Source: a virus. Taken from it: DNA of 38,085 bases. Position 1 is the stretch's first letter. Every line of letters starts with the position of its first letter. Both the position numbers and the translations under genes were made by a program. Shown piece by piece: positions 4,312-37,464 of the stretch. The stretch lies in the IMG/VR virus record IMGVR_UViG_3300027710_000064, positions 1 to 38,085 of that record; one strand, given 5' to 3'. Under the pieces are notes generated by a model that was not told where the DNA came from, made no database searches, and saw only the letters and a program-made list of their open reading frames with translations.

Positions 4312-4503
4312 ATGGAAAAAAGATACGCACAGCAAATAATAGAATGGGCAGAGTTAGCTAAACAAACATTGAGTGTTCGTAAAGAAATTATACTTGATGA
4401 TAGTTTAACCGATGAACAATTGGGAATTATCATTAGACAAATGTATAGAGCAAAAGCGGAAGCAGAAACCGAATCCATAGAACGTTGTAAACAATATTTA
4501 TAA
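4312..4503 (+). CDS. Small helical protein, unknown
   Basis: A 63-residue protein read from the ATG at 4312; an in-frame ATG at 4291 lies inside the preceding gene and is less likely. The sequence looks all-helical, with many Ala, Glu and Gln residues and no hydrophobic segment. The stop overlaps the next start (TAATG). Unknown function. Confidence 0.65.
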   Translation: MEKRYAQQIIEWAELAKQTLSVRKEIILDDSLTDEQLGIIIRQMYRAKAEAETESIERCKQYL

Positions 4504-5159
4504 TGAGTTGGATATGTAAATATTGTGGCAAAGATACTAAATGGATTGATATGGATTATTTGGTAGGTACTGACCACTTACAATGTGTATTAGAAGCAAT
4601 AGATGAAGTAAAACAATCAAAAGTTATGAAAATTAAGAATTGGGATAAGATAAGTGGTTATACTTACAAAGGTTATACAATAGTTAATCCAATACATAAT
4701 GCGGGTGGCACAATGTATTACGCAGATGTGTTAAATTTAAACTTACCACAAAAACCAAAGTGGCATTTAGAATTAATGATTGAAGCCGGCGGAATTGATG
4801 AGCACTTACTTAGATTATTAGATGGCAATGGCTTGAATATAAAACATAAAATAGAATTAGTTGATATTAGAACGGCAGCATTATTTAGAGTAAGGTATGA
4901 GGAAATTATTGATGAAATGTTAAGTAGACAATTAACATCAGCACCAACATATAATAGCCATTCATTAAGTGGGGTAGTAAATATAAATAATGGTTCAAAT
5001 GGTATATTAAACACAATAGCAAGTAGTGGAACTAATGTTGTTTATACTAATGCACTTAATGGTACTACATATACACAGGGTTCAATAATAGATACAATAA
5101 AAGAGTTACAAAGACAAATTGATGAATTAAAATTACACACACCAACAAATCCTTTTTAA
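4503..5159 (+). CDS. Unknown protein with an N-terminal zinc-knuckle-like motif
   Basis: A 218-residue protein. The N-terminus has C-K-Y-C (residues 5-8), then a His and a Cys near residue 27 (D-H-L-Q-C), which could form one zinc site. The middle is a mixed alpha/beta region. A Ser/Asn/Thr/Gly-rich stretch (about 148-190) looks like a flexible linker or beta-rich segment, followed by a short coiled coil (I-K-E-L-Q-R-Q-I-D-E-L). It is translationally coupled to the gene upstream. No family is recognised. Confidence 0.7.
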   Translation: MSWICKYCGKDTKWIDMDYLVGTDHLQCVLEAIDEVKQSKVMKIKNWDKISGYTYKGYTIVNPIHNAGGTMYYADVLNLNLPQKPKWHLELMIEAGGIDEHLLRLLDGNGLNIKHKIELVDIRTAALFRVRYEEIIDEMLSRQLTSAPTYNSHSLSGVVNINNGSNGILNTIASSGTNVVYTNALNGTTYTQGSIIDTIKELQRQIDELKLHTPTNPF

Positions 5160-5482: not shown

Positions 5483-5803
5483 ATGATAGTATTATTAATC
5501 GCAGCATTTATTATCGGTTGGTTAGTAGGTGCAAAGCAAGAACAAAAACGTATATTGAATCCAAAAGAGTATATACCTGAACCAGAAGTTGTAGAAAAAT
5601 TACAAACGTTAGCGGGTATCAAAGAGCACGATACACAAAAAGGTGTAGAAATATTAATGAATGCACCGGCAAGTGAAAAGTTTGTAGAATTATTTAAACA
5701 AAATAGAGCAGAGATTGAATCTAATGAAGCAGCATCAGTTCAGTTGACCGGTGAAAGTGATTCGCATTACTATTACAAAACAACAAAAGATAAAAAGAAA
5801 TAG
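5483..5803 (+). CDS. Single-pass membrane protein, unknown
   Basis: A 106-residue protein. The N-terminal 17 residues (IVLLIAAFIIGWLVGA) form one membrane segment, followed directly by a charged stretch (K-Q-E-Q-K-R), so the soluble part should face the cytoplasm. The remainder is helical and ends Lys-rich. Its TAG stop shares a base with the GTG start of the next gene. Confidence 0.7.
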   Translation: MIVLLIAAFIIGWLVGAKQEQKRILNPKEYIPEPEVVEKLQTLAGIKEHDTQKGVEILMNAPASEKFVELFKQNRAEIESNEAASVQLTGESDSHYYYKTTKDKKK

Positions 5804-6102
5804 TGCTAACTATTAAAAACATATCAAAGTTAGAAGGGTACGAATCACATCCGTGGAAAATTGAATATATAAACACAATAGATGTTATGTATATTTTTTC
5901 AATAGATAATAAGAATGGAAATTATATTACAAATGTAATTTTAAGTAGAACACCACAAGAAGTTGATGGAAATATTTTATATAGTTTGAATGTAAATAGT
6001 GAGGAGCAATTGATTCCTAAAAGTTTATTACTATCGGCAAAATCATTAGGTAAACATATTATAAATTTACTTAATATGAGTGATTTTAACCCACCTTTTT
6101 AA
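5803..6102 (+). CDS. MLxIxN-family small protein (copy 1 of 12)
   Basis: A 99-residue protein with a GTG start inside the previous stop (TAGTG). It opens M-L-T-I-K-N-I-S-K-L, the signature of a family with twelve copies between here and 11002. The family layout is an N-terminal L-x-I-x-N, a W-K-I-E-Y-like strand near residue 20, a hydrophobic strand near 35, an L-x-R motif (here I-L-S-R, about 48-51), a second strand pair and a C-terminal helix. There is no signal peptide. The function of the family is unknown. Confidence 0.75.
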   Translation: MLTIKNISKLEGYESHPWKIEYINTIDVMYIFSIDNKNGNYITNVILSRTPQEVDGNILYSLNVNSEEQLIPKSLLLSAKSLGKHIINLLNMSDFNPPF

Positions 6103-6115
6103 CATACATAACTGA

Positions 6116-6126
6116 TTGAAACTCAA
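6116..6126 (+). promoter_or_regulatory. TTGA-N3-TCAA operator-like site
   Basis: TTGAAACTCAA followed by TA, lying 50 bases before the -7 box of the next promoter. Similar sites (TTGATTCTCAA at 12398, TTGATTATCAA at 26634) lie at almost the same distance from two other intergenic promoters, which suggests a shared activator site. Confidence 0.45.
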
Positions 6127-6132
6127 TAGATT

Positions 6133-6174
6133 AGCTCTAATATACCCTATTATTTGGTATTTTGGGGCTTTTTT
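6133..6174 (+). terminator. Rho-independent terminator
   Basis: A long stem: AGCTCTAATATACC (6133-6146) pairs with GGTATTTTGGGGCT (6156-6169) with one mismatch and wobble pairs, a 9-base loop, then a run of T. It ends the 2698-6102 transcription unit and overlaps the -33 element of the following promoter. Confidence 0.72.
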
Positions 6175-6184
6175 CGTATCTTTG
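6153..6184 (+). promoter_or_regulatory. Bacteroidota-type promoter overlapping a terminator
   Basis: TTTG (6153-6156), 20 bases, TATCTTTG (6177-6184), an exact match to the TAnnTTTG consensus. The ATG at 6189 follows after 4 bases, so the transcript is probably leaderless. The -33 box sits within the terminator hairpin. Confidence 0.72.
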
Positions 6185-6188
6185 ATAT

Positions 6189-6458
6189 ATGATAACAATA
6201 CAAAATAGCGAGGCAATTATCCGACGAGACCTTATTGATAGTTGGTATGTATTGGGTATAAAGAAAGGTTATAACAAATACTATATTAATCTAACAAAGG
6301 CAGGTGAGCTGTTATTTAAGGGATGTGAATTAAGTAGGGAAATGAATGGAAATGGTTTCTACATACTAAAATGTGGAACTGAATACTGCACGCTAACTAA
6401 GTCACAAATGGGTGATATGAAATATATTTTAGAATGTTTAAGTAGCTTTGTTCAATAA
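6189..6458 (+). CDS. MLxIxN-family small protein (copy 2 of 12)
   Basis: An 89-residue protein, one of the shorter family members. It opens M-I-T-I-Q-N-S-E-A-I, has W-Y-V-L-G-I near residue 19, the strand Y-Y-I-N-L-T, the E-L-S-R motif near 47-50, then F-Y-I-L and a T-K-S-Q-M turn before the C-terminal helix. It is the first gene behind the 6153-6184 promoter. Function unknown. Confidence 0.75.
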   Translation: MITIQNSEAIIRRDLIDSWYVLGIKKGYNKYYINLTKAGELLFKGCELSREMNGNGFYILKCGTEYCTLTKSQMGDMKYILECLSSFVQ

Positions 6459-6551
6459 ATGTATGATAAGCAAACGATAGGGTATGTAGTATGTATAATG
6501 ATTGCATACATTTGGTATTTGTACGATACACATAAAGATAAAAGAAAATAA
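6459..6551 (+). CDS. Micro-membrane protein (30 residues)
   Basis: A 30-residue open frame beginning on the base after the preceding stop. Residues 7-22 (I-G-Y-V-V-C-I-M-I-A-Y-I-W-Y-L-Y) form a short membrane helix and the tail is basic (H-K-D-K-R-K). The compact spacing (stop, 1 base, next ATG) and the basic tail, as in its neighbour, support a real gene, but its size makes this uncertain. Confidence 0.5.
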   Translation: MYDKQTIGYVVCIMIAYIWYLYDTHKDKRK

Positions 6552-6552
6552 T

Positions 6553-6681
6553 ATGAATCCTTTTGTAATAGTATTAATAGCAGCCGGAATAGTTAATGGG
6601 TTGAATGTATGGTATATGATTAGAAGTAGACGATTACACAATTTATGTATCAAAAGACGTAAAGAAAATAAAAAGAAATAA
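6553..6681 (+). CDS. Micro-membrane protein (42 residues)
   Basis: A 42-residue open frame with one hydrophobic segment (about 4-22, FVIVLIAAGIVNGLNVWYM), then a strongly basic tail (R-S-R-R-L ... K-R-R-K-E-N-K-K-K). By the positive-inside rule the tail is cytoplasmic. It is spaced by 1 base from its neighbours on both sides, suggesting a coupled set of three membrane proteins (6459-6940). Function unknown. Confidence 0.55.
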   Translation: MNPFVIVLIAAGIVNGLNVWYMIRSRRLHNLCIKRRKENKKK

Positions 6682-6682
6682 T

Positions 6683-6940
6683 ATGATAACAGGTTACTTA
6701 ATAATGATAATATATCCAATAGGATTTTTATTGACATTAACATTCTTTAAATTCTTTGGAGTGAAGATTGGATTTGATTATGATAATGAAAAAACATATG
6801 CCGAATATGATGATTGGGATAGTAACGCACAAGCATTTACCACATTCTCTTTGATGTGGCCGGTTATAGTACCTATGTTATTAATAATCGGTATTTTCAA
6901 AATAGTATTCAAATTTAGTAAATGGTATATAAACGAATAA
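6683..6940 (+). CDS. Two-pass membrane protein, unknown
   Basis: An 85-residue protein with two hydrophobic segments (about 3-24 and 55-77) separated by an acidic loop (D-Y-D-N-E-K-T-Y-A-E-Y-D-D-W-D). The loop should be periplasmic or cytoplasmic depending on orientation; the short flanks do not decide it. It follows two micro-membrane genes and precedes copy 3 of the MLxIxN family. Confidence 0.68.
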   Translation: MITGYLIMIIYPIGFLLTLTFFKFFGVKIGFDYDNEKTYAEYDDWDSNAQAFTTFSLMWPVIVPMLLIIGIFKIVFKFSKWYINE

Positions 6941-6943
6941 AGT

Positions 6944-7207
6944 ATGCTTACAATTAGTAATCCACAAAGGTTAGTAGGTGAGGAATATAGTGATTGGTTA
7001 AAAGTAATTGGAGTGAAAGAACATAATAATTGTTATGAATTTACATTAGCCAACAAAGAAATGAGCCAAATAGAAACTATATTACTACATAGAAAACGAA
7101 CTGAAAACAAAATGTATATAATGGAATACAATACTAAAACTTTATGGCTTCATAAAGACGAATTTGACACAACCGAAAAAATTATTCTTTGTATGCAAAC
7201 AATATAG
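6944..7207 (+). CDS. MLxIxN-family small protein (copy 3 of 12)
   Basis: An 87-residue protein opening M-L-T-I-S-N-P-Q-R-L, with W-L-K-V-I-G-V (18-24), Y-E-F-T-L, L-L-H-R (about 48-51) and Y-I-M-E-Y, then a C-terminal helix. It fits the family pattern well. The gene ends immediately before the first G-rich hairpin element. Confidence 0.75.
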   Translation: MLTISNPQRLVGEEYSDWLKVIGVKEHNNCYEFTLANKEMSQIETILLHRKRTENKMYIMEYNTKTLWLHKDEFDTTEKIILCMQTI

Positions 7208-7208
7208 T

Positions 7209-7266
7209 ACACTTTTGGCGGGCGGGGGCCGGGGGTAAAAGTGTCGTTGGGAAAATTTTTTGATAG
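7209..7266 (+). promoter_or_regulatory. G-rich hairpin leader element, copy A
   Basis: ACACTTTT (7209-7216) pairs perfectly with AAAAGTGT (7237-7244). The 20-base loop is almost all G and C, with four G tracts, in a genome that is otherwise AT-rich. GTGTCGTT and then AAAATTTTTTGATAG follow, and the ATG of the next paralog is 17 bases further on. Copy B at 8895 repeats the arrangement. The loop could fold as a G-quadruplex held by a stem. A role in control of the downstream gene is inferred. Confidence 0.6.
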
Positions 7267-7283
7267 CATAAATTATATATACA

Positions 7284-7607
7284 ATGTTAAAAATACAAAA
7301 TGTAAATAGAATAATAGGAATGACCGCAAATGGTTGTAGAGTGGTGAGTGTAGAATATAGTACTGAAAAACGTGGTTACTTTTTTAATTTGACAGATAAT
7401 CATGGATTAAATTCGGAAGATAATGGATATTTTCAAATTCGTTTATTAGAAACGGATGAAGTGGATAGCTATAGCTTATTTGTTATGGGCTGGCATATAT
7501 GCACTGTTATATGTGTAACAAAAGATGATATGAAAGGACCACCGGAGTTGGCATCCTTAATGTACAAAATAATAGATAAAGCAATAGAAAGTAAAAATCA
7601 ATATTAG
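7284..7607 (+). CDS. MLxIxN-family small protein (copy 4 of 12)
   Basis: A 107-residue protein opening M-L-K-I-Q-N-V-N-R-I-I. It keeps the V-V-S-V-E-Y strand, Y-F-F-N-L and the C-terminal helix, but the L-x-R motif is altered (I-R-L-L-E-T), the only copy without it. It has the second-longest product of the family and is preceded by G-rich leader A. Its start region closely matches copy 9, which has leader B. Confidence 0.75.
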   Translation: MLKIQNVNRIIGMTANGCRVVSVEYSTEKRGYFFNLTDNHGLNSEDNGYFQIRLLETDEVDSYSLFVMGWHICTVICVTKDDMKGPPELASLMYKIIDKAIESKNQY

Positions 7608-7611
7608 TAAT

Positions 7612-7917
7612 ATGCTAACGATAACAAATATAGAGGCGTTACAAAATGAAATGGTTGCGTATGATGGTAGTAATTGGATGGTAACTAAAATCAATATCAA
7701 TGAGGATGGTGATTACTATGGTATCGTTATACGAAAACAAACAAATGCTGCAAATGATTATGTAGTATTGTATCTAATGAGGGCTGGTATTGGTAATGGT
7801 GAGTATGAATTAAAGAATAGTAAACAATCAGCAAAGAGAATAATACACATATCGAATATACAAAACATAAATTTATTCAAATATATAATTCAAAGAGAAC
7901 TTACTAGATTATGCTAA
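7612..7917 (+). CDS. MLxIxN-family small protein (copy 5 of 12)
   Basis: A 101-residue protein: M-L-T-I-T-N-I-E-A-L, W-M-V-T-K-I near residues 23-28, Y-Y-G-I-V-I, L-Y-L-M-R for the L-x-R motif, then Y-E-L and a C-terminal helix. Its end overlaps the start of copy 6 by 7 bases. No membrane segment. Unknown function. Confidence 0.75.
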   Translation: MLTITNIEALQNEMVAYDGSNWMVTKININEDGDYYGIVIRKQTNAANDYVVLYLMRAGIGNGEYELKNSKQSAKRIIHISNIQNINLFKYIIQRELTRLC

Positions 7918-8255
7918 ACATACAAAATATACATAAAATAAGGCATGAGACAATACAAATTAAAGGTGAGGTGTGGACGATTGGTAATATTAAGGCGGTA
8001 GATTTATTAGATGGTAATTACTATCAATTTGATATACATTCATTTTTTAGTGATAGGTTGGTGCATATATTTTTGAATAGGGAAACAAAAGGTGAAAAAC
8101 AAAAAGAACAAACCTATTATCATTTTCAAAGCAGAGGTGAATACTATGAAATGATAAATAATTGGAATGAAGATAAGATTACAATCAATAGAGACTTGGT
8201 AATAAAAGATGGGCTGTTAATGTTTATGCAAAAAATGTTAGAAACTATAAAATAG
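7911..8255 (+). CDS. MLxIxN-family small protein (copy 6 of 12)
   Basis: A 114-residue protein, the longest copy: M-L-N-I-Q-N-I-H-K-I, W-T-I-G-N-I (22-27), Y-Y-Q-F-D-I, I-F-L-N-R-E (L-x-R), then a Lys/Glu-rich loop and Y-Y-H-F. It overlaps copy 5 by 7 bases. The longer central loop accounts for the extra length. Confidence 0.75.
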   Translation: MLNIQNIHKIRHETIQIKGEVWTIGNIKAVDLLDGNYYQFDIHSFFSDRLVHIFLNRETKGEKQKEQTYYHFQSRGEYYEMINNWNEDKITINRDLVIKDGLLMFMQKMLETIK

Positions 8256-8261
8256 AATAGA

Positions 8262-8579
8262 ATGTTAAACATAGAAAATGTGGATAAGGCATTGGGAAGA
8301 TCGGTGAACATTAATAGCTTAGTGTATATGATAACCGAAATAAACAAATTAAAAGATTGTTATATTTTTCATTTACAATCCACTACATTGGTGGGTGCTA
8401 AAGTTATACAAAGAATAATGATGAGTAGAGAGCGGGTTAAGGGTATAGATAAATATACACTTACAGCATTTGGTTTTACAAATCATAATGTATGGGGTGT
8501 TGATTATCCGAGTTTACATGGAGTGGATAGTTTTCTAAAAGAGTTACAATTATTTTTATACAATGTAAAGAATGTATAA
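8262..8579 (+). CDS. MLxIxN-family small protein (copy 7 of 12)
   Basis: A 105-residue protein: M-L-N-I-E-N-V-D-K-A-L, V-Y-M-I-T-E-I (21-27), C-Y-I-F-H-L, R-I-M-M-S-R-E-R, Y-T-L-T-A-F, then a C-terminal helix. The stop overlaps the next start (TAATG). Its N-terminus is close to copies 4, 6 and 9. Confidence 0.75.
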   Translation: MLNIENVDKALGRSVNINSLVYMITEINKLKDCYIFHLQSTTLVGAKVIQRIMMSRERVKGIDKYTLTAFGFTNHNVWGVDYPSLHGVDSFLKELQLFLYNVKNV

Positions 8580-8893
8580 TGTATAGCAGAAGATTGGTTA
8601 TAAAAAATAAAGAGGCGTTGGTATATAAGATAGTACATTCAAATAGTTTAAGTAATTACTATTATATACATAACATAACGGAGTATGAGCACCACTATCT
8701 ATTTCATATACTACATAATAACAATGATAAAACATATACAATACGATTAAGTAGAAATTCAGTAGAGGGTATGTATGTTATGTATGATACAGCACAATCA
8801 AACAATGCTGATTTATTAACAAAGGATAAGTTAGAGGATAAGGATAGGGTATTAAGATCAATATCAACAATAATCAAAATGGATTTTTTGTAA
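8579..8893 (+). CDS. MLxIxN-family small protein (copy 8 of 12, divergent start)
   Basis: A 104-residue protein whose N-terminus is extended by four residues (M-Y-S-R-R-L-V-I-K-N-K-E), so the L-x-I-x-N motif begins at residue 6. It keeps the family core: Y-Y-I-H-N-I, Y-L-F-H-I-L, I-R-L-S-R and Y-V-M-Y, then T-K-D-K-L and a C-terminal helix. It ends just before G-rich leader B. Confidence 0.72.
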   Translation: MYSRRLVIKNKEALVYKIVHSNSLSNYYYIHNITEYEHHYLFHILHNNNDKTYTIRLSRNSVEGMYVMYDTAQSNNADLLTKDKLEDKDRVLRSISTIIKMDFL

Positions 8894-8894
8894 A

Positions 8895-8948
8895 ATCGGT
8901 GGCGGGGGCTGGGGGAACCGGTGTCGTTACCCAAATTTTTTTGATAGT
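8895..8948 (+). promoter_or_regulatory. G-rich hairpin leader element, copy B
   Basis: ATCGGT (8895-8900) pairs with ACCGGT (8917-8922; one wobble). The 16-base loop is dominated by two runs of five G. GTGTCGTT (8921-8928) and AAATTTTTTTGATAG follow, then TATATATA and the ATG at 8965. The flanks match copy A almost base for base while the stem arms differ but still pair. That is what one expects if the folded structure, not only the sequence, is kept. Confidence 0.6.
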
Positions 8949-8964
8949 AGAAAATGTATATATA

Positions 8965-9270
8965 ATGTTAAAAATAGAAAATAGAGGAAAGTTATTAGAT
9001 GAAATTATTACTATAAATGGTGACAAACAATATAGGATATACAATATAGTTGAGAAAGATGACCACTATGCAATATACTTAACTCAACACTCACCTGTGA
9101 TGTTAATACTAAACCGAAATAAGGTAGTAAATGAAAATGGGCATACATACGATTACTATACAATGTACGATAGTGACATACCGAATAACGCATTTAATTT
9201 AAGTAAGGGTGTAATTAGTGGAATGGATACTTTTATGAATGCAATAAGACAGATATTAGAAATGAAATAA
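8965..9270 (+). CDS. MLxIxN-family small protein (copy 9 of 12)
   Basis: A 101-residue protein from the ATG at 8965. The frame is open back to 8899, but that extension would translate the G-rich leader and is blocked by a stop in the matching copy A, so the shorter start is chosen. M-L-K-I-E-N-R-G-K-L, Y-R-I-Y-N-I, Y-A-I-Y-L, L-I-L-N-R, Y-Y-T-M-Y and a C-terminal helix follow the family pattern. Confidence 0.75.
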   Translation: MLKIENRGKLLDEIITINGDKQYRIYNIVEKDDHYAIYLTQHSPVMLILNRNKVVNENGHTYDYYTMYDSDIPNNAFNLSKGVISGMDTFMNAIRQILEMK

Positions 9271-9271
9271 T

Positions 9272-9589
9272 ATGAAACTAACAATACACAATATAACTAA
9301 CATAGTCAATACAAAGATTAACACTACACACGCTCAATGGGTAATAGAGTATGTAATGTCTAATGAGAACTATTATACAATCAAAGTCACTTTTGTATTT
9401 GGTAAAACAATGGGTAAGGTACATCCTAAGCATATCTATTTCCAATTATATAGGGATAAGGATAAGGATGGGTATTGGATAATGGATAGCACTGAAACGG
9501 CGCTACATAGGTGGGGAGTGTTTAGAGCACATATGGAAACGAGTAAAGATTTCATAGATACCTTAAAGCGACAATTAGATACATTATGA
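9272..9589 (+). CDS. MLxIxN-family small protein (copy 10 of 12)
   Basis: A 105-residue protein: M-K-L-T-I-H-N-I-T-N-I, W-V-I-E-Y-V (23-28), Y-Y-T-I-K-V, Y-F-Q-L-Y-R-D, Y-W-I-M, then a C-terminal helix. The N-terminus has one extra residue relative to most copies. Its TGA overlaps the next ATG (ATGA). Confidence 0.75.
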   Translation: MKLTIHNITNIVNTKINTTHAQWVIEYVMSNENYYTIKVTFVFGKTMGKVHPKHIYFQLYRDKDKDGYWIMDSTETALHRWGVFRAHMETSKDFIDTLKRQLDTL

Positions 9590-9816
9590 TAGTAGGTGCA
9601 TTGATAGGAATAATGGCGGTATGTATCGTAATGGGTATAAGGATAGTACAAAACATACTGAAACATAATAAGAGAATGAGGGAATTGGAAAGGGAGTTGG
9701 ATATAAAATTAGAAAGGCGGGAAATAAGATTACAAAGGTATGAAAGGGAACGACATAACCAATGGATAAATAGTACACAAAACCATAATACAATCTATAA
9801 AGGAATAAATAAATAA
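9586..9816 (+). CDS. Single-pass membrane protein with a coiled-coil tail
   Basis: A 76-residue protein. Residues 1-24 form one membrane helix (IVGALIGIMAVCIVMGIRIV), followed by a highly charged Arg/Glu/Lys helix (about 28-60, with R-E-L-E-R-E-L) predicted to be coiled coil, then a polar tail. The plan resembles small phage spanin or holin-accessory proteins, but no motif confirms this. It is coupled to copy 10 by an ATGA overlap. Confidence 0.65.
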   Translation: MIVGALIGIMAVCIVMGIRIVQNILKHNKRMRELERELDIKLERREIRLQRYERERHNQWINSTQNHNTIYKGINK

Positions 9817-9827
9817 AACAAAAGTAT

Positions 9828-9980
9828 ATGAATAAGAAAATAACAAAGGGTGAAATAATAGAGGCGGTAACCTTTATACTAATGACGGTGGGAATAATAG
9901 TAATGATAATGTCACTACATCAGCTAAACGAAGTGGGTAAGGAAGTAAAGGCAATAAAAGAATTAAGAATAAGTAAATAG
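9828..9980 (+). CDS. Single-pass membrane micro-protein (50 residues)
   Basis: A 50-residue open frame: a basic start (M-N-K-K-I-T-K-G), one hydrophobic segment (about 13-30, AVTFILMTVGIIVMIMSL), then a charged helix ending I-S-K. Spacing of 11 and 5 bases to its neighbours and the codon style of the block support it. Unknown function. Confidence 0.6.
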   Translation: MNKKITKGEIIEAVTFILMTVGIIVMIMSLHQLNEVGKEVKAIKELRISK

Positions 9981-9985
9981 AGTAT

Positions 9986-10192
9986 ATGGATAGTGGAATG
10001 ATTGATAATACAAAGGTAATGGATATAGTATTTAGAAAACAATTCCATTTAGCTAAACATAATAATTGGGAAATGGAAGGATTGAATAGCGAACAAAAGA
10101 AACTAATGTTGGAATACCTAATGAAATACTTCCTTAAGATTGAGGAATATGAAGTGTGTAACGAAATACAAATACAAATAGATAAGATATGA
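9986..10192 (+). CDS. Small helical protein with a UVR-like C-terminus
   Basis: A 68-residue protein. The C-terminal part (about 43-68), Y-L-M-K-Y-F-L-K-I-E-E-Y-E-V-C-N-E-I-Q-I-Q-I, resembles the C-terminal segments of the genes at 3833 and 18102 and the short UVR pairing motif. The N-terminal half is polar. The stop overlaps the next start (ATGA). Function unknown. Confidence 0.65.
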   Translation: MDSGMIDNTKVMDIVFRKQFHLAKHNNWEMEGLNSEQKKLMLEYLMKYFLKIEEYEVCNEIQIQIDKI

Positions 10193-10368
10193 TACATAGA
10201 ATAAAGAACATATACAAAATACATAGGTTAATACATAGGAATACTAACTATTATGATAGAGGCAGAATAAGTAGAAGGGCAAAGATATACTTACAACGAA
10301 TCGATGAGTATTTTAAAGAAAGAAAACAAAACAAAAGGGAATATGCTAACAATAAAGAATGTAGGTAA
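10189..10368 (+). CDS. Small Arg/Lys-rich protein (59 residues)
   Basis: A 59-residue open frame starting in an ATGA overlap with the gene upstream: M-I-H-R-I-K-N-I-Y-K-I-H-R, strongly basic with many Tyr, suggesting nucleic-acid binding. Its last 26 bases overlap the start of MLxIxN copy 11, which is unusually long for this window and lowers confidence. Confidence 0.5.
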   Translation: MIHRIKNIYKIHRLIHRNTNYYDRGRISRRAKIYLQRIDEYFKERKQNKREYANNKECR

Positions 10369-10669
10369 ATTACTAAACAATACCTTTAAGGATAAAATAG
10401 GTATGGAATGGTATGTGGATAAGATAATAACGGACCCTAAGGAATACTTAATAGTCGTTGAACAAAGGTATGCGTTCAAAAAGGAAGTGGTGGCATTAAG
10501 TAGAGAAGTAGAACATAATAGTAATACATATGTGTTCGGTATATCCAATGGCGGTATCAGTAATCAAAGGATATATAAGAGTAAACGATATATAACAAAG
10601 GTAATAATAGAAGATAAAAAATTATTACTAAATCAAATCACTCACTTAATAGATGAAATAATAAAATAA
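10343..10669 (+). CDS. MLxIxN-family small protein (copy 11 of 12)
   Basis: A 108-residue protein from the ATG at 10343, chosen because it places M-L-T-I-K-N-V-G-K-L exactly at the family start; an in-frame ATG at 10304 would add 13 Lys-rich residues. The core has W-Y-V-D-K-I, Y-L-I-V-V, V-A-L-S-R-E and Y-V-F-G-I, then a C-terminal helix. Confidence 0.75.
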   Translation: MLTIKNVGKLLNNTFKDKIGMEWYVDKIITDPKEYLIVVEQRYAFKKEVVALSREVEHNSNTYVFGISNGGISNQRIYKSKRYITKVIIEDKKLLLNQITHLIDEIIK

Positions 10670-10672
10670 GAT

Positions 10673-11002
10673 ATGATTACAATACATAATAGGGATAAGA
10701 TAATTAATCAATGTATAAAGGGAATACATACAACGACAAGAATGTCTTTAAACTACGATATACATATTATGATTGAAGATATCACTGTATATAGAATAAA
10801 GATAAGAGACCCATTTTTAGGTAAGGATAAGATACTAACACTACATAGAAATCCTACAAATGTATATAGAGGAAGTAGTGATGAATACTATATGTTAGAG
10901 GATAACGAAACGGATAAGCAAATGTATATAACAAAAAAGAACATAAGGAATATGTCTCACTTCGTCCATACGGAATTAAAATTCTTTGTAGAAAATATAT
11001 AA
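10673..11002 (+). CDS. MLxIxN-family small protein (copy 12 of 12)
   Basis: A 109-residue protein, the last copy: M-I-T-I-H-N-R-D-K-I, Y-D-I-H-I-M-I, Y-R-I-K-I, L-T-L-H-R-N and Y-Y-M-L, then I-T-K-K-N and a C-terminal helix. An HNH nuclease gene follows after 5 bases. Confidence 0.75.
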   Translation: MITIHNRDKIINQCIKGIHTTTRMSLNYDIHIMIEDITVYRIKIRDPFLGKDKILTLHRNPTNVYRGSSDEYYMLEDNETDKQMYITKKNIRNMSHFVHTELKFFVENI

Positions 11003-11007
11003 ACGAT

Positions 11008-11388
11008 ATGAAATACAAAACACCTAAAGAAAAAACAATAGCGAGATTGGTAGATAATTGTAAAAGTGCAAGTAATAGGGATAAGAAAAAAAGAAAGGGT
11101 ATAAACCAATGTGACGTTACCTTTGAGAGTATGTTATCCTTAATGGAAAGACAGGATTGGAAATGTGCTATAAGAGGTCAATCATTTGTTATAATGGATA
11201 AAAGATATAAGGTAGAGGAAAGAAAAAAATTAGGTATCAATTCACTCCTTATACCCTCAATAGACAGAATAGATAATAATAAAGGATATACAATGGATAA
11301 CATACGAATAGTCACTAACGGATATAATCAATTAAGGAATAGGTATGAGGAAAGGGAAGTTATGGAATGGATATTATCTAACGAATAA
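11008..11388 (+). CDS. HNH endonuclease
   Basis: A 126-residue protein with a basic N-terminal half (K-K-K-R-K-G) and an HNH-type core. W-K-C-A-I-R-G-Q-S-F (51-60) is the first strand, P-S-I-D-R-I-D (83-89) carries the catalytic-region Asp, and G-Y-T-M-D-N-I-R-I-V (93-102), then N-Q-L-R-N, gives the Asn and the closing helix. The usual C-x-x-C of zinc-binding HNH proteins is reduced to one Cys, and the histidine expected before D-R-I-D is a Ser (S-I-D). This is common in phage free-standing HNH proteins but may weaken activity. It is likely a homing or packaging-type nuclease. Confidence 0.82.
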   Translation: MKYKTPKEKTIARLVDNCKSASNRDKKKRKGINQCDVTFESMLSLMERQDWKCAIRGQSFVIMDKRYKVEERKKLGINSLLIPSIDRIDNNKGYTMDNIRIVTNGYNQLRNRYEEREVMEWILSNE

Positions 11389-12902: not shown

Positions 12903-13010
12903 ATGATAACAATTTTAGAAGCCGTTATAATCGCGGTAGTAACAATTTTAGTTTACACATTAGTATTAACAATCAAACAAACAATAGATGAGAAAAAAGA
13001 GAAACGATAG
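12903..13010 (+). CDS. Single-pass membrane micro-protein (35 residues)
   Basis: A 35-residue open frame with one hydrophobic helix (about 2-23, ITILEAVIIAVVTILVYTLV) and a charged basic tail (D-E-K-K-E-K-R). Its 3' end overlaps the start of the GIY-YIG gene by 23 bases. It resembles the other micro-membrane proteins of the window. Confidence 0.5.
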   Translation: MITILEAVIIAVVTILVYTLVLTIKQTIDEKKEKR

Positions 13011-13302
13011 AAACCACTTAATATACGAAATTATAAACGTTGAGAATGGCAAACGTTATATAGGAGTTACCGCGTGTATTGGTAGAGCATTTAACTATTC
13101 AGCTTATAGACGTTTTCAAAAACATATGAGCAGAGCTAAATGTGAAAACAAAGACTGGGCATTGTATAAGGATATGAAAAAATACGGACCTGATGTATAT
13201 GATGTGTATGTAATAGATGTAGTAAGGGGTAAAGCAGAAGCACATAAATTAGAGACCTTCTACTTACAAAATTTTAAGTATCAATTAAATTCAACACACT
13301 AA
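12988..13302 (+). CDS. GIY-YIG nuclease-domain protein
   Basis: A 104-residue protein with a GIY-YIG domain. L-I-Y-E-I (11-15) stands for GIY and K-R-Y-I-G-V-T (22-28) for YIG. A conserved-type Arg and His (R-R-F-Q-K-H, about 41-46) and the late Glu (H-K-L-E-T-F-Y-L, Glu89) complete the active site. There is no separate DNA-binding domain, so it is a stand-alone nuclease core as in many free-standing phage endonucleases. With the nearby HNH gene it suggests homing or mobile-DNA activity around this interval. Confidence 0.85.
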   Translation: MRKKRNDRNHLIYEIINVENGKRYIGVTACIGRAFNYSAYRRFQKHMSRAKCENKDWALYKDMKKYGPDVYDVYVIDVVRGKAEAHKLETFYLQNFKYQLNSTH

Positions 13303-24253: not shown

Positions 24254-24751
24254 ATGAAAAAAAATATAGAGATAACAAATAATATATTAACTAAAGATGA
24301 GATTTTATATTTATCAGAATTATTAAAAAATAAAAATGATTGGAAGTATAAAACACAGTTCGACCAACCATATGCATATTTTGATTCTTTATATGTGGAT
24401 ATAAATAAATTAAAAAAATATTGTGAACTAATATGTGAAAATGAAAAATATGAAATCAAAGAAATTGGTATTATTGTTATTGAAAAGGATAGACAATTAA
24501 AAAATAGCATACATTCAGATAATTCGGTTGTAAGTTATATTACATATTTAAATGAAGAATTTAAAGGAGGAGAATTTGTTTATTATGATGAGGAAAAAAA
24601 CGAAATTTTAATAACACCCAAACAGAATATGAGTATTATAATTTCAAATAAAACATTACATAAAGTATTAGAAGTTACATCTGGAACTAGATTTAGTTTA
24701 TACACCTTTTTGACAAAATCAGAAATTAAAAAATATAAAAGTATAATATGA
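24254..24751 (+). CDS. 2OG-Fe(II) oxygenase, prolyl-hydroxylase type (5 of 5)
   Basis: A 165-residue protein with H87-S-D89, K-G-G-E-F, H136 (T-L-H-K-V) and R146 (G-T-R-F-S-L). The start, I-T-N-N-I-L-T-K-D-E, resembles the other P4H-type copies. It ends K-K-Y-K-S-I-I. It overlaps the SGNH-like gene by 4 bases. Confidence 0.88.
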   Translation: MKKNIEITNNILTKDEILYLSELLKNKNDWKYKTQFDQPYAYFDSLYVDINKLKKYCELICENEKYEIKEIGIIVIEKDRQLKNSIHSDNSVVSYITYLNEEFKGGEFVYYDEEKNEILITPKQNMSIIISNKTLHKVLEVTSGTRFSLYTFLTKSEIKKYKSII

Positions 24752-25560
24752 AAATTTTAAAATATTGGACTGCAGAGGAGTTTGAAGTTTCATCTTACAA
24801 ATATAATTTATCAAAAAGAAAAAATAGTATATGGAAAGAATCGGGTAGTGATAAAACCCGTAAATGTACTTACACATATAACGAATTAGGTTTTAGAGGT
24901 GATAGTATTAAAAAAGATGGCTTCAAAATCATGTCTTTAGGTTGTTCTCATACCGAAGGTGTTGGTGTAAACGATGATGAATCGTGGCCTGCACAATTCA
25001 CAAAATTAGTACCAAATGGAGTTAATATGAATTTTGGAACGGGTGGAAGAAGTGGAGATTTTGTGGTAAGATGTTTGTTAAGTTATTATGATTTGATTAA
25101 ACCAGATTTGGTATTAATTTTTTATCCAGATAACGCTAGAAAAGACATATATACAATAGAAGGTGGAGTTGAACCATATATGCCATTATCCGCTTGGGGG
25201 TATATGGAAGAAACCGACAATGGTAAACTTATTCAAAAAAATTTACTTGAAATTCAAAATAACAATCATGATTTTGTAAATTGGTACAAAAACCATCTTT
25301 TGATAAAATTATTTTTAGAATCAAAAAAATGTAATTTTATTTGGAATGGTAGTTTAATACGATCTCCTTATAAAGATGAATTTAGATATGATGGTGATTT
25401 TTTTACAAACATAATAGATAAGGGTGTTGATAATAGACATACTGGACCAAACCATCTAAAAAATTATGCAACAAAGTTATACGACCATATCAATACCAAT
25501 TTTCCTCATTTTTTAATAAGTGATAAAACTAAATTAAATATTAAAAAAGAGTTAATATAG
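24748..25560 (+). CDS. SGNH/GDSL hydrolase-like protein (copy 4 of 6)
   Basis: A 270-residue protein. L-G-C-S-H-T-E-G-V-G-V (about 68-78) is block I and D-E-S-W-P-A-Q-F resembles the W-x-x-x-L helix of phage SGNH proteins; G-T-G-G-R-S-G-D follows, then Y-P-D-N-A-R. The C-terminal D-N-R-H-T-G-P-N-H matches block V. The N-terminal extension of about 60 residues is not in copies 1-3. Its place among the oxygenases suggests removal or transfer of an acyl group in the same pathway. Confidence 0.7.
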   Translation: MKILKYWTAEEFEVSSYKYNLSKRKNSIWKESGSDKTRKCTYTYNELGFRGDSIKKDGFKIMSLGCSHTEGVGVNDDESWPAQFTKLVPNGVNMNFGTGGRSGDFVVRCLLSYYDLIKPDLVLIFYPDNARKDIYTIEGGVEPYMPLSAWGYMEETDNGKLIQKNLLEIQNNNHDFVNWYKNHLLIKLFLESKKCNFIWNGSLIRSPYKDEFRYDGDFFTNIIDKGVDNRHTGPNHLKNYATKLYDHINTNFPHFLISDKTKLNIKKELI

Positions 25561-26609
25561 TGAAATACGACGATAAATTAAAGCAGTATATATGTACAAC
25601 ACCGTTTGTTTATTTAGAAGTACATAAAGGTGGAGTACACAGTTGTTGTCCATCTTGGTTACCAAATAGAATTTCTAGTTTAGAAAACATTGATACAGCT
25701 TGGGAAAGTGAAGAATTAAAAAAAGTACAAGAATCAATGTTAGATGGATCATACAAATATTGTTCAAAAACACAATGTCCTTATTTGTCGGAATTACTTA
25801 TGACGGGTAATAAACCAAAAGGATTTATTGATAAAAGTGATTTTAATATTAATGATTATAAAATAGGTCCTACTAATATAAATTTTGCATTCGATAGAAG
25901 TTGTAATCTAACATGTCCAAGTTGTAGAAATATAGCTGTTATGGCAGATGGAACTGAATTAGAATTTATAGATAATACAATAAATAAAATAGTAGATGTG
26001 TACGGAAAAAATATGACTATGTTATACCTTTCTGGTACCGCTGACCCATTTGCATCAAAATCAATTAGAAAATTATTACTAAATTTTGATAGAAATAAAT
26101 TTCCAAATGTAAATCATATCCATCTACATACCAACGCATTATTGTTAACTGAAAAAATGTGGAATAGTTTAAGTCACATACATGATTTAATAAAAACCAT
26201 CGAAATTAGTATTGATGCTGCTAATGAAGAAACTTATAAAATTGTTAGAAGAGGTGGTGATTGGCAAACATTATTAAAGAATTTAGATTTTATATCAACT
26301 ATAAAACTCCGTAATAAAAATGTTTCATTTGTTACACAAGATACAAATTATTTAGAAATGGAAGATTTTTATATCTTAATGAATAAAATTTTTAAAAACA
26401 ATATAAATGTATTTTTTAATAAAATAACAAATTGGGGAACATACACACCTGCGGAATATGCTATTAAACAAATATGGAACGAATCACATCCAGAATTTCA
26501 AATGTTTTTGCAACAACTTAACAAAATTAATAAAAAACATAAGTGTACCCACAATATGCACGATATAATTGAAAAACATCTACCTAAAAAAATAAATGGT
26601 TTAATATAA
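25560..26609 (+). CDS. Radical SAM enzyme with an N-terminal SPASM-like Cys region
   Basis: A 349-residue protein, GTG start overlapping the previous stop. C115-N-L-T-C119-P-S-C122 is the radical SAM 4Fe-4S cluster motif. The N-terminal 80 residues have C12, C29, C30, C68 and C73 arranged like the auxiliary-cluster (SPASM) region, which in many phage enzymes precedes the radical SAM core. It probably modifies a peptide or protein. It depends on Fe-S clusters, which links it to the IscU and IscA genes downstream. It is the last gene of the cluster. Confidence 0.88.
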   Translation: MKYDDKLKQYICTTPFVYLEVHKGGVHSCCPSWLPNRISSLENIDTAWESEELKKVQESMLDGSYKYCSKTQCPYLSELLMTGNKPKGFIDKSDFNINDYKIGPTNINFAFDRSCNLTCPSCRNIAVMADGTELEFIDNTINKIVDVYGKNMTMLYLSGTADPFASKSIRKLLLNFDRNKFPNVNHIHLHTNALLLTEKMWNSLSHIHDLIKTIEISIDAANEETYKIVRRGGDWQTLLKNLDFISTIKLRNKNVSFVTQDTNYLEMEDFYILMNKIFKNNINVFFNKITNWGTYTPAEYAIKQIWNESHPEFQMFLQQLNKINKKHKCTHNMHDIIEKHLPKKINGLI

Positions 26610-30407: not shown

Positions 30408-31253
30408 ATGAATTTAAATAATTACGATACTATATATTTCAATGGATGTTCCTTTACCGAAGGTGGTGGATTTGAAGCAGGTAAACATCATATTCATAAA
30501 GCCTATAAAGAAAAATATGGATTTGAATATAAGAATGAAAAAGAAGTTTGTTATCCTACCATAGTTCAAAATTTATTACCAAATATAAAAGTAATTAACG
30601 AAGCTAAAAGTGGTAGTGGTACTGACCGGGTTATAAGAAAGACTTGGGAATATATTTTTAAAAACCGATTAGATAAAGTTAAAAAAACAATATTCATTTT
30701 AGAATTACCAGGATCGGTAGCTAGATTAGATTTATTTTCAAACAAAGAATTTAAACCTTTAGTTGGAAATGTTTCGTATAATGATAACGGAAAAATAAAT
30801 GATACACAAGTAGTATTAAATTGGATATATGGACCACAATTAGATGAAGAATATAGAAATAAACTTCGTAGAATAATAAAAGAATATTCGGAAGAATTTA
30901 TACATCCTGGATTTAAAGAAAAGCAAGTTGCATATTCATTATTTGGATTGGCTAATTTTATGTTATTACACAATATAAAATTTTATATTACAGGAGATAC
31001 AAGTTATACTGAATCTCATTTAAATTTACAATATGATTACCCTAAGTTTAATAATGAACATATTTTACGATTAAAAATCGGTAGTGAATATTACAACAAT
31101 ATAGTAAGATTTGCAGGTGAAACAAAAACCCAAATTGTAGATGAAATAGGTGCAGATGTTACAACCGATGGACATCCAGGATATCAAGCACACAAACAAT
31201 GGGCTGAAGCAATTGTTGAATTTTTAAAAGAACCAAAAAATTATAAAAAATAA
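30408..31253 (+). CDS. SGNH/GDSL hydrolase-like protein (copy 5 of 6)
   Basis: A 281-residue protein: F-N-G-C-S-F-T-E-G-G-G (10-20) as block I, A-K-S-G-S-G-T-D-R as block II, F-I-L-E-L-P-G-S strand and T-D-G-H-P-G-Y-Q-A-H as block V with Asp and His. The longest of copies 1-5. It follows the methylase without a gap and ends just before a small gene. Confidence 0.75.
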   Translation: MNLNNYDTIYFNGCSFTEGGGFEAGKHHIHKAYKEKYGFEYKNEKEVCYPTIVQNLLPNIKVINEAKSGSGTDRVIRKTWEYIFKNRLDKVKKTIFILELPGSVARLDLFSNKEFKPLVGNVSYNDNGKINDTQVVLNWIYGPQLDEEYRNKLRRIIKEYSEEFIHPGFKEKQVAYSLFGLANFMLLHNIKFYITGDTSYTESHLNLQYDYPKFNNEHILRLKIGSEYYNNIVRFAGETKTQIVDEIGADVTTDGHPGYQAHKQWAEAIVEFLKEPKNYKK

Positions 31254-32599: not shown

Positions 32600-33493
32600 A
32601 TGAATTTAGGATATGCTTGTATTAATCTTTCTTTAGGTAAGAAAGTTACAACAAACCGAACAATGATTAAAAAAACCTTTATAGATAAGGGTTTAGATTA
32701 TGTGTCTGATTTGGTTTTATTAAATGTAACTGATTTAGCTAAGATTATAGATTGGAATTACCAAACTGGTATTAATATGTACCGAATGAGTAGTGATATG
32801 GTACCATGGGCTACTGAATACCAATTTGATGAACTTAAAGATTGGAAATTAATAAAAGCTATATTGGAAAGTTGTGGTAAAAAAGCAAAAGCATACAATC
32901 AACGTTTATCATTTCATCCAGGACCTTTTAATGTATTAGTTTCACCAAAAGAAAGTGTTGTACTTAATACTATTAACGATTTAGAAGTACATGGTAGACT
33001 TATGGATGCTATGGGATTATCACAAACACCATACAATAAGATTAATATCCATTGTAATGGGGTATATGGGGATAAACAAAGTGCAATGGATAGATTCATT
33101 GACAACTTTGGAAGACTCTCTAAATCGGTGCAAAATCGGTTAACAATAGAGAATGATGATAAGGCTAGTATGTATTCGGTTAAAGATTTAATGTATATAC
33201 ACCAAAAGATAGGTATTCCTATTGTATTTGATTATCATCACCATAAATTTAATACAGGTGACCTAAGTGAAGAACAAGCATTGAAATTAGCAATGAGTAC
33301 ATGGCCAGATGGTATTACTCCGGCTGTACACTATTCCGAATCAGCTATTGGTAAAAAACCACAAGCACATTCCGATTATATTTCTGAAAGAATTAATACT
33401 TATGGTAATGAGATAGATATTATGGTAGAAGCAAAAGCAAAAGATTTAGCAATTTTAAAATATAAAAACGAAAATTATGGCATACTCAGATAA
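32600..33493 (+). CDS. uvsE: UV DNA-damage endonuclease (UvsE/UvdE)
   Basis: A 297-residue protein with the whole UvsE signature: L-G-Y-A-C-I-N (3-9), Y-R-M-S-S-D (61-66), L-S-F-H-P-G-P-F (103-110), N-I-H-C-N-G-V-Y-G-D-K, T-I-E-N-D-D, F-D-Y-H-H-H, H-Y-S-E-S, H-S-D-Y-I and M-V-E-A-K-A-K-D. The His, Glu and Asp residues are those that bind the metal cluster. The enzyme nicks DNA 5' of UV photoproducts. It ends overlapping iscU by 17 bases. Confidence 0.95.
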   Translation: MNLGYACINLSLGKKVTTNRTMIKKTFIDKGLDYVSDLVLLNVTDLAKIIDWNYQTGINMYRMSSDMVPWATEYQFDELKDWKLIKAILESCGKKAKAYNQRLSFHPGPFNVLVSPKESVVLNTINDLEVHGRLMDAMGLSQTPYNKINIHCNGVYGDKQSAMDRFIDNFGRLSKSVQNRLTIENDDKASMYSVKDLMYIHQKIGIPIVFDYHHHKFNTGDLSEEQALKLAMSTWPDGITPAVHYSESAIGKKPQAHSDYISERINTYGNEIDIMVEAKAKDLAILKYKNENYGILR

Positions 33494-33878
33494 AGTAATT
33501 GACCATTACCAGAACCCAAAAAATGTAGGAACTTTGGACAAATCAAAATCCAATGTAGGTACAGGTTTAGTCGGAGCACCAGAATGTGGTGATGTAATGA
33601 GACTACAAATAGAAGTTGAAGATAATAGAATTATTGATGCAAAATTCAAAACATTTGGTTGTGGTTCGGCAATAGCAGCATCTTCATTAGCAACGGAGTG
33701 GTTGAAAGGTATGACATTAGATGAAGCAGTTAAATTAGACAATATGGAATTGGTAGAAGAACTAAATCTACCGCCAGTTAAAATACATTGTTCAGTATTA
33801 GCCGAAGATGCTATAAAATCAGCTATAAACGATTATAGAACTAAAAATAATTTAGAAATATTAACATTTGAAAACTAA
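33477..33878 (+). CDS. iscU: Fe-S scaffold protein IscU
   Basis: A 133-residue protein. C37-G-D39, F-G-C62-G and K-I-H104-C105-S line up with the four cluster ligands of Escherichia coli IscU (C37, D39, C63, H105 and C106) almost position for position. The L-P-P-V-K loop that recruits HscA is also present. It builds 2Fe-2S and 4Fe-4S clusters. No cysteine desulfurase (IscS) is present in the window, so sulfur must come from the host. Confidence 0.95.
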   Translation: MAYSDKVIDHYQNPKNVGTLDKSKSNVGTGLVGAPECGDVMRLQIEVEDNRIIDAKFKTFGCGSAIAASSLATEWLKGMTLDEAVKLDNMELVEELNLPPVKIHCSVLAEDAIKSAINDYRTKNNLEILTFEN

Positions 33879-36046: not shown

Positions 36047-36370
36047 GTGATAACAGTAACAGAATCAGCAGCTAAGAAACTAAATTCACTTATTGAAGAA
36101 AGTGGGTTTACAACACCATATGTTAGAGTATCGGTTAAAGGAGGAGGATGTAGTGGATTATCATATGACCTTTCATTTGATACTGAACAACAACCATCAG
36201 ATACGTTGGCAGAAGATAAAGGAGTAAAAATTTTAGTAGATAATAAATCTTTACTTTATTTGTTTGGCACAGAACTAGAATTTTCAGATGGATTAAATGG
36301 TAAAGGATTTCAATTTATAAATCCTAATGCATCGCGTACATGTGGATGTGGTGAATCATTTGCATTATAA
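36047..36370 (+). CDS. iscA: A-type Fe-S carrier, IscA/HesB family
   Basis: A 107-residue protein, GTG start directly after the previous stop. The three cluster-binding Cys are C35 (G-G-G-C-S-G), C99 and C101 (R-T-C-G-C-G-E-S-F), the same numbers and the same length as Escherichia coli IscA. It carries Fe-S clusters to target proteins. Together with iscU it suggests the phage supports cluster supply, plausibly for the radical SAM enzyme. Confidence 0.95.
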   Translation: MITVTESAAKKLNSLIEESGFTTPYVRVSVKGGGCSGLSYDLSFDTEQQPSDTLAEDKGVKILVDNKSLLYLFGTELEFSDGLNGKGFQFINPNASRTCGCGESFAL

Positions 36371-36373
36371 TAT

Positions 36374-37408
36374 ATGAAAGATATAATTTGTGTTGGTGGA
36401 TCAAATACATCATTTAGGAGACCGGAAAAAGAAAGATTTAAAGATGCGTATTGTCCTATTGGTACACATCCAAACGCAAACATAGGTTCATATCCAGAAG
36501 CAATTAATAGAAATTTTGGTAATAAAGTATATAACTTAGGTGTAGCAAGTAATACAGTCCAAGCATCAGTATTATCAACCATATCATTAGCAACCAAATT
36601 ATTAAATGAAGGAAATAATAATTTTTCAATAATTTTTAATTGTCCCGAATTTTATAGACAATCGTTTTATTTTTCCGATACAATGAGAAAGATAAAAAAT
36701 ATAAAAGATGATTTAGTTAATCCAATTAATAACAATTATTTATTTACGGATAATCAATCTGGATTTTTATTATTTGGTGGTGTACAAAATGTTGCAAAAG
36801 AAGCATATTCCGATGATAACGCATTTAAAGTTGCAAAAGCATATTCTGAACATTTATTTTCATTTGAAGAAGCTGAGATTAAAGCTATTACACATTTGTT
36901 ATTATTGCAAAGTTTTTGTAAAACAAACAATATACAATATAAAATATTTTTTGATTTTGATGTATTGTCATTACCTGATATGAATTATTTTGAATTAGAT
37001 AAAACAAATGAAGAAACATATTTTAAATCATATTTTATAGATAAACAATTAACAAAAAAAGAACCATTGGGTTATATTAAAAAAGATGAATATGTTTATG
37101 ATTTATTTAAAATGTTAGATTTAAATAATTTTTGGTTTTATAAAGATGATAATGTACAATATGGTGGTATTCATGAGTGGATATTTAAAAATAATGAATA
37201 TAAAGAAGGTGATGATGAGTATATCGCATTTTTCTTTGAAGATACTGAAATGACTCCTCAAGAATTACAAGATAAACCTACAAAATTAAAAATTAGTAGA
37301 GCAAAAGAAAAAATGAAAAATAATACATTTTTTAATACTGCACATCCTACTTACTACTATTGGGAAAAATTTGTTAAAGAAGTAATGGTTGATTGGAATT
37401 TATTTTAG
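36374..37408 (+). CDS. SGNH/GDSL hydrolase-like protein (copy 6 of 6, longest)
   Basis: A 344-residue protein: C-V-G-G-S-N-T-S-F-R-R-P-E-K-E (5-19) as block I, L-G-V-A-S-N-T-V-Q-A as block II, strand I-I-F-N-C-P-E-F-Y and F-N-T-A-H-P-T-Y-Y-Y as block V, where Asn/Thr stand instead of the usual Asp. A long insert (about 120-300) separates them. It is the most diverged copy and may be inactive. Confidence 0.65.
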   Translation: MKDIICVGGSNTSFRRPEKERFKDAYCPIGTHPNANIGSYPEAINRNFGNKVYNLGVASNTVQASVLSTISLATKLLNEGNNNFSIIFNCPEFYRQSFYFSDTMRKIKNIKDDLVNPINNNYLFTDNQSGFLLFGGVQNVAKEAYSDDNAFKVAKAYSEHLFSFEEAEIKAITHLLLLQSFCKTNNIQYKIFFDFDVLSLPDMNYFELDKTNEETYFKSYFIDKQLTKKEPLGYIKKDEYVYDLFKMLDLNNFWFYKDDNVQYGGIHEWIFKNNEYKEGDDEYIAFFFEDTEMTPQELQDKPTKLKISRAKEKMKNNTFFNTAHPTYYYWEKFVKEVMVDWNLF

Positions 37409-37414
37409 ATATTA

Positions 37415-37446
37415 TTTGGAAATTAAATTAATAAAGTGTATATTTG
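37415..37446 (+). promoter_or_regulatory. Bacteroidota-type promoter for the deformylase gene
   Basis: TTTG (37415-37418), 20 bases, TATATTTG (37439-37446), 18 bases before the ATG at 37465. Confidence 0.7.
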
Positions 37447-37464
37447 AATAATAAACATTTACAT

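Follow-up and report, generated by a model that had tools for sequence, protein, structure and literature searches.

The twelve small genes found between positions 5803 and 11002 of the IMG/VR virus record IMGVR_UViG_3300027710_000064 (38 kb, analysed over its whole length and called here the window) are paralogues of a single, previously undescribed family of soluble, single-domain proteins of about 100 residues. The array that they form (p1 to p12, Table 1) belongs among the hypervariable accessory-gene arrays of phages, and its products may constitute a battery of small host-directed binding proteins. All twelve open reading frames (ORFs) listed in an earlier note on this DNA were recovered at the coordinates given there, on the + strand, and their assignment to one family, also proposed in that note, was confirmed with a hidden Markov model (HMM) profile built only from the copies of other phages, which avoids circularity. 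When this profile was scanned against every ORF of the window and against reversed decoys, it matched 12/12 genes at E values from 2.6e-11 to 1.2e-22, the best reversed decoy reaching 0.67 and the next-best ORF of the window (4491-5156) 0.0028. A jackhmmer search seeded with p3 alone converged in five rounds on 140 sequences, which included all twelve members and 0 decoys. The twelve proteins have diverged to a mean pairwise identity of 23% (range 15-32%), so that homology between single pairs is only partly detectable (p8-p9, E 9e-10; p2-p3, 4e-8; p1-p5, 2e-6; p9-p12, 7e-5). The L-x-R motif claimed for 11 of the 12 was indeed found in all but p4, and a family definition combining the profile match with M-[LI]-x-I-x-N, then Y, L-x-R and a C-terminal helix recovers 12/12 at E<=3e-11 and no decoys.

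At the level of gene organization, the run of twelve genes is broken by small non-family ORFs at 6459-6943 and 9586-10342, and upstream of it, at 4503-5159, there is probably a thirteenth copy, divergent and fused to a zinc finger. Small hydrophobic ORFs that appear membrane-like by eye lie amid the array at 6553-6681, 6683-6940, 9586-9816 and 9828-9980. The start of p8 is the ATG at 8579, which gives five extra residues, and the starts of p9 and p11 lie within longer open frames. The median length of the family is 104 residues. In searches of Pfam, PHROGs, NCBIfam and PADLOC against 104 members, no model matched more than two of them, with a best E value of about 1e-3 that corresponds to noise, and sequence and fold searches of the PDB gave nothing confident for family members. 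The earlier statement that the proteins have no known relatives stands for these libraries but fails for metagenomic phages, in which relatives are many, making the family widespread and not orphan.

The distribution of the family was followed through two neighbouring genes of the window, a UV-damage endonuclease gene (32600) and an SPFH gene (3277), which replaced the single-protein route; the full family alignment is too diverse for scanning, and a search of viral contigs with p9 alone gave no match. Ten of the relatives reached in this manner carry 3-20 copies each by the family profile, and with the further records from the two ortholog scans the family is present in at least 26 IMG/VR records including the window, most of them within this range of copy number. 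No family copy was seen in about fifty sampled relatives, which are mostly fragments. The two ortholog groups had no match among 84,980 genomes of bacteria and archaea, by a method that reaches close relatives only, and blastn and tblastn searches of cultured phages and plasmids were negative as well. The family carriers are T4-like phages, as manifested by the four largest family-bearing records (209-245 kb), all of which encode a Gp23 T4-type major capsid protein (4/4) and an S77 prohead protease (4/4). Among cultured phages with Bacteroidota hosts, the Flavobacterium phage immuto has the closest capsid protein (50% identity), those of a Microcystis phage and of an uncultured phage scoring slightly above it. 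Immutovirus immuto and other Gp23 phages of Bacteroidota resemble the carriers in this protein, but immuto differs from them in that no family match was found in it at E<=1. The promoter pattern TTTG-N20-TAnnTTTG has five matches on the + strand of the window against 0.5 expected, with four on the minus strand too, and Shine-Dalgarno sequences are lacking, as they are in Flavobacterium (PMC6847099). From the promoters, the missing Shine-Dalgarno sequences and the capsid relative, the host is probably a member of the Bacteroidota.

The gene content of these arrays turns over among related phages, which have some ortholog groups in common and lack others. The array genes share an idiosyncratic gene-start motif, ATGCTAACAATA, with the first-codon consensus ATGcTAACAATA, whose conservation at the nucleotide level exceeds what the protein requires. 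The leucine at position 2 is encoded by CTA in 73/114 members, as compared with 14% of the leucines elsewhere in the same genes and, over codons 2-5 of 435 ORFs outside the family, with 9/176 leucines. Moreover, 26/85 adjacent pairs overlap by exactly 7 nt, the first gene of the pair terminating within the start motif of the second (ATGCTAA), so that an exchange at this point would leave both neighbours readable. The points at which related arrays cease to be homologous coincide with gene starts about 6 times more often than random ones: among homologous blocks in seven phages, the right end is 0-25 nt past a gene start in 27/93 cases (4.5% expected), and the left end precedes one by 1-25 nt in 20/73 (3.9% expected). 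In a near-identical stretch of the records G016 and G017, one of the two has an extra whole gene of 331 bp, the left junction of which lies after ATGCTAACAATAAAAAAC, inside the start motif; their arrays also differ by substitution clusters of 42 and 12 inside two genes. Taken together, whole-cassette gain, loss and exchange by recombination at the shared start motif is supported, not proven. In several relatives (L018 and L006-L009), the UV-damage endonuclease gene is located within the array region, whereas the window has it at 32600-33493, at a distance of about 25 kb; an upstream sequence, TTTATCGTATCTTTATAAAAATAA, is common to this gene and to the window gene at 3277.

These cassette-like breakpoints, together with the endonuclease genes close by, an HNH (endonuclease VII-like) gene at 11008-11388 directly following the array and a GIY-YIG gene at 12988-13302 further on, would also be expected of a mostly selfish or neutral expansion driven by start-motif recombination, with no battery function. 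We consider this improbable, as the coding frames are intact, orthologs are under purifying selection, with a median ratio of nonsynonymous to synonymous substitution rates (dN/dS) of 0.32 over 117 ortholog pairs, and the predicted core fold is maintained at 15-32% identity between paralogues.

A second DNA element is linked to the arrays. It has two copies in the window (7217-7266 and 8899-8947), each about 50 bp long and on the strand that carries the genes. Both combine a G-rich run with GTCGTT, a T tract and GATAG. The G-rich core pattern occurs in 21/23 family-bearing records and in 0/7 relatives without the family, the latter mostly fragments, and a reversed control pattern gave none. 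There are 1-2 elements per record, even in records of about 237 kb, and others were found in L109, L111, L112, L114, L116, L118, L124 and L143-L154. The element often ends immediately 5' of the start codon of a family gene; one copy in G005-G008 and in G041 has instead a Bacteroidota -7 box 20 nt downstream. The simplest reading is a regulatory one, in which the element probably controls how the variable part is expressed; it may instead be a recombination site or a replication origin. Several other identities were tried and set aside. A conserved RNA hairpin was rejected when only some copies folded better than shuffled sequences (z -2.2 to +0.9), which leaves an intrinsic terminator or structured RNA unsupported as a property of all copies, and an Rfam scan of the array had no match. 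A canonical G-quadruplex would need four GGG tracts and no copy has more than three (G4Hunter 1.2-2.5), and the GC-skew is unchanged at the element within the window, weak evidence against an origin.

It is conceivable, if unlikely, that the whole array is a dedicated diversification device in which two sequences acting in cis, the conserved motif at the gene starts and the direct-repeat G-rich element, recombine whole-gene cassettes between co-infecting phages; each lytic T4-like phage would thereby gain its own repertoire of host-binding proteins. The arrangement recalls the pilE/pilS system of antigenic variation of Neisseria, where a guanine quartet adjoins the expressed locus, in having a G-rich sequence beside a diversified paralogue array and gene-conversion-like tracts between close relatives. 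However, the array genes look translatable and not like silent donors, the elements lack four GGG tracts, and no donor tract was identified within the genome. As regards a diversity-generating retroelement, which would comprise a reverse transcriptase with template and variable repeats, the differences seen were clustered tracts and a whole-gene insertion. A further parallel is found in archaeal viruses such as SIRV2, where anti-defence genes are grouped under shared regulatory sequences and anti-CRISPR (Acr) paralogues occur in one genome (PMC11065993). In both sets a DNA sequence conserved upstream links numerous small accessory genes of early type (PMC11065993), but the array genes belong to one family and are operon-coupled, and a shared strong promoter before each gene, as in SIRV2, was not found, the element having only 1-2 copies per record.

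At the structural level, an AlphaFold2 model of p3, computed with 104 relatives, reached a predicted local distance difference test score (pLDDT) of 95.3 and shows an antiparallel five-stranded sheet preceded by a short helix and followed by a C-terminal one, the predicted fold beginning at residue 1. The comparison with known folds that the earlier note had proposed gave no confident match: in Foldseek all PDB matches had E >=0.5 and none in BFVD was below 0.05, the best being an uncharacterised phage protein (E 0.057), and the top Z of a second structural aligner was 4.8. This absence of a confident match does not establish the p3 fold as new. A frataxin-like fold recurred at a Z of about 4, too weak to be retained, and was set aside despite the NifU/IscU-like and IscA-like genes of the window; a Mediator-tail-like fold was also compared as a candidate, the 4.8 above being the best Z of p3 overall.

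The model bears on the suggestion that the proteins are injected internal proteins like Ip1-3 of T4, packaged in the head and entering with the DNA to inhibit restriction enzymes. Ip1-3 inhibit different variants of the type IV restriction enzyme GmrSD, and these several small variable proteins have non-overlapping targets (PMC12373910). The carriers are T4-like phages that possess the S77 prohead protease, and in both cases each genome encodes a number of small accessory proteins that vary (PMC12373910). However, the most conserved part of the array proteins, the N-terminus, belongs to the predicted fold from residue 1 (pLDDT >90) and is not a removable signal, and a prohead-protease-like [ILM]xE[AGS] occurs in the first 35 residues of only 13/140 members, at scattered positions. 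The family differs from Ip1-3 in that its N-terminus carries no distinct packaging signal and that a consistent protease site is absent; its copies are also far more numerous and all of one family, and no sequence relation was found, which makes this explanation quite unlikely. That the proteins are virion surface or structural accessory proteins varying among relatives is more doubtful still: small beta-rich domains and copy-number variation would suit such a role, but the family sits among very small ORFs, away from head or tail genes, and its matches to structural PHROGs are only single noise ones.

The gene at 4503-5159, whose orthologs are kept directly upstream of the array in many relatives, carries an N-terminal CxxC...HxxC followed by a domain that opens with MKIKNWDKISG in register with the family motif. 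It corresponds to the ORF that scored next after the twelve members, at E 0.0028 against 0.67 for the best decoy, with the profile built from the copies of other phages. The profile of its orthologs matched the family profile at E 2e-4 with a probability of 46%, and zinc-finger fusions of other phages match the family at E values of about 1e-4. An AlphaFold2 model computed with 13 orthologs and no array member has the order H-E-E-E-E-E-H, as in the family (helices at 47-50 and 125-145, five strands over 58-117), at the modest quality of a mean pLDDT of 63.9 and about 60-90 over residues 41-150. Homology of this gene to the family is probable, not certain. When CapZ/PI31-like folds were compared as candidates, the best Z of this low-confidence model was 8.0, to actin-capping protein. 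Family domains with other N-terminal extensions were observed in L126 (G028) and L120 (G015), in frames of 172, 175 and 149 residues.

Since several phages have such a zinc finger joined to the family domain in a gene immediately preceding the array, the members might instead be nucleic-acid-binding proteins or regulators of transcription or translation, the fusion being the parent gene from which the array diversified. The isoelectric points, which range from acidic to basic with a median of 7.9 and exceed 8 in 67/139 members, could be counted for this possibility, but they also vary widely and fall below 6 in 21/139; beyond a single Arg there is no invariant basic patch, and no nucleic-acid-binding fold stands out among the matches. 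Such a role is, in our view, unlikely.

The anatomy of the array, in which soluble, small, intact, selected, diversified and exchangeable genes lie near small hydrophobic ORFs, resembles known phage accessory-gene sets, and it is because of this resemblance that we infer, tentatively and at somewhat less than an even chance, a battery of small host-directed binding proteins, possibly acting against defences, as the most likely of the readings. The label of anti-host or anti-defence proteins given by the earlier note would fit this anatomy. Each small cytoplasmic member would bind a different host protein, possibly one involved in defence, the members would be expressed together from coupled operons, and arms-race selection would hold the core fold constant while surfaces and gene content turn over. 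Several points weigh against this reading. Neither sequence nor fold comparisons linked any member to a known inhibitor, dN/dS below 1 gives no sign of positive selection at the level of whole genes, and the zinc-finger fusion is also compatible with nucleic-acid binding. The start motif could be a translation signal instead, and breaks of synteny at gene starts are partly expected from any whole-gene replacement. Besides, the idea that G016 and G017 differ in the array alone proved wrong: about 20% divergence separates them over a region that lies some 7 kb upstream, and such heavy divergence outside the array means that general mosaicism contributes and that array-specific hyper-recombination is not proven.

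Table 1. Features of the array and of a second paralogous group in the window
Feature	Position	Strand	Evidence
Gene preceding the array: zinc finger at the N-terminus (CxxC...HxxC), then a probable 13th, divergent family domain (residues ~42-145) and a C-terminal extension	4503..5159	+	
p1, 99 aa, GTG start	5803..6102	+	relatives-only HMM, E 1.6e-15
Bacteroidota-type promoter TTTG-N20-TATCTTTG, 4 nt 5' of the p2 start codon	6153..6184	+	pattern match, sequence reading
p2, 89 aa	6189..6458	+	relatives-only HMM, E 6e-16
p3, 87 aa, most conserved anchor member, structure predicted	6944..7207	+	HMM, E 1.2e-22; AlphaFold2, pLDDT 95.3
G-rich array-linked element, copy 1 (GGCGGGCGGGGGCCGGGGG...GTCGTTGGGAAAATTTTTTGATAG)	7217..7266	+	
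p4, 107 aa	7284..7607	+	relatives-only HMM, E 2.6e-11
p5, 101 aa; stop codon within the p6 start motif (7-nt overlap)	7612..7917	+	HMM, E 2.1e-16; sequence
p6, 114 aa	7911..8255	+	relatives-only HMM, E 7.9e-12
p7, 105 aa	8262..8579	+	relatives-only HMM, E 5.7e-13
p8, 104 aa	8579..8893	+	relatives-only HMM, E 7.6e-16
G-rich array-linked element, copy 2 (GGCGGGGGCTGGGGG...GTCGTTACCCAAATTTTTTTGATAG)	8899..8947	+	
p9, 101 aa	8965..9270	+	relatives-only HMM, E 5.9e-14
p10, 105 aa	9272..9589	+	relatives-only HMM, E 8.1e-17
p11, 108 aa	10343..10669	+	relatives-only HMM, E 7.5e-15
p12, 109 aa	10673..11002	+	relatives-only HMM, E 3e-14
SGNH-hydrolase-like group	37-675, 1232-1933, 1920-2681, 24748-25560, 30408-31253, 36374-37408		

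Other genes of the window were also noted. The HNH domain of the gene at 11008-11388 also matches a PHROG annotated as 'decoy of host sigma70'. Six proteins with an SGNH-hydrolase-like GCSxTxG/GDSxTxG start, recognised by eye, form a second paralogous group in the phage. Genes for NifU/IscU-like and IscA-like iron-sulfur (Fe-S) assembly proteins, a peptide deformylase and a radical SAM protein lie at 33477-33878, 36047-36370, 37444-38082 and 25560-26609.

The family described here is an uncharacterised one with hundreds of natural variants, carried in exchangeable arrays by phages whose hosts are probably environmental Bacteroidota, and the counter-defences of Bacteroidota phages constitute a poorly known field. 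If the battery reading is true, these arrays would already make up a library of inhibitors directed at the host, and the start motif together with the G-rich element would provide a simple sequence handle for locating further arrays. The placement of the upstream stop codon within the recombining start motif also offers a testable model of how a lytic phage may acquire or replace a gene while leaving the adjacent ones unaffected.

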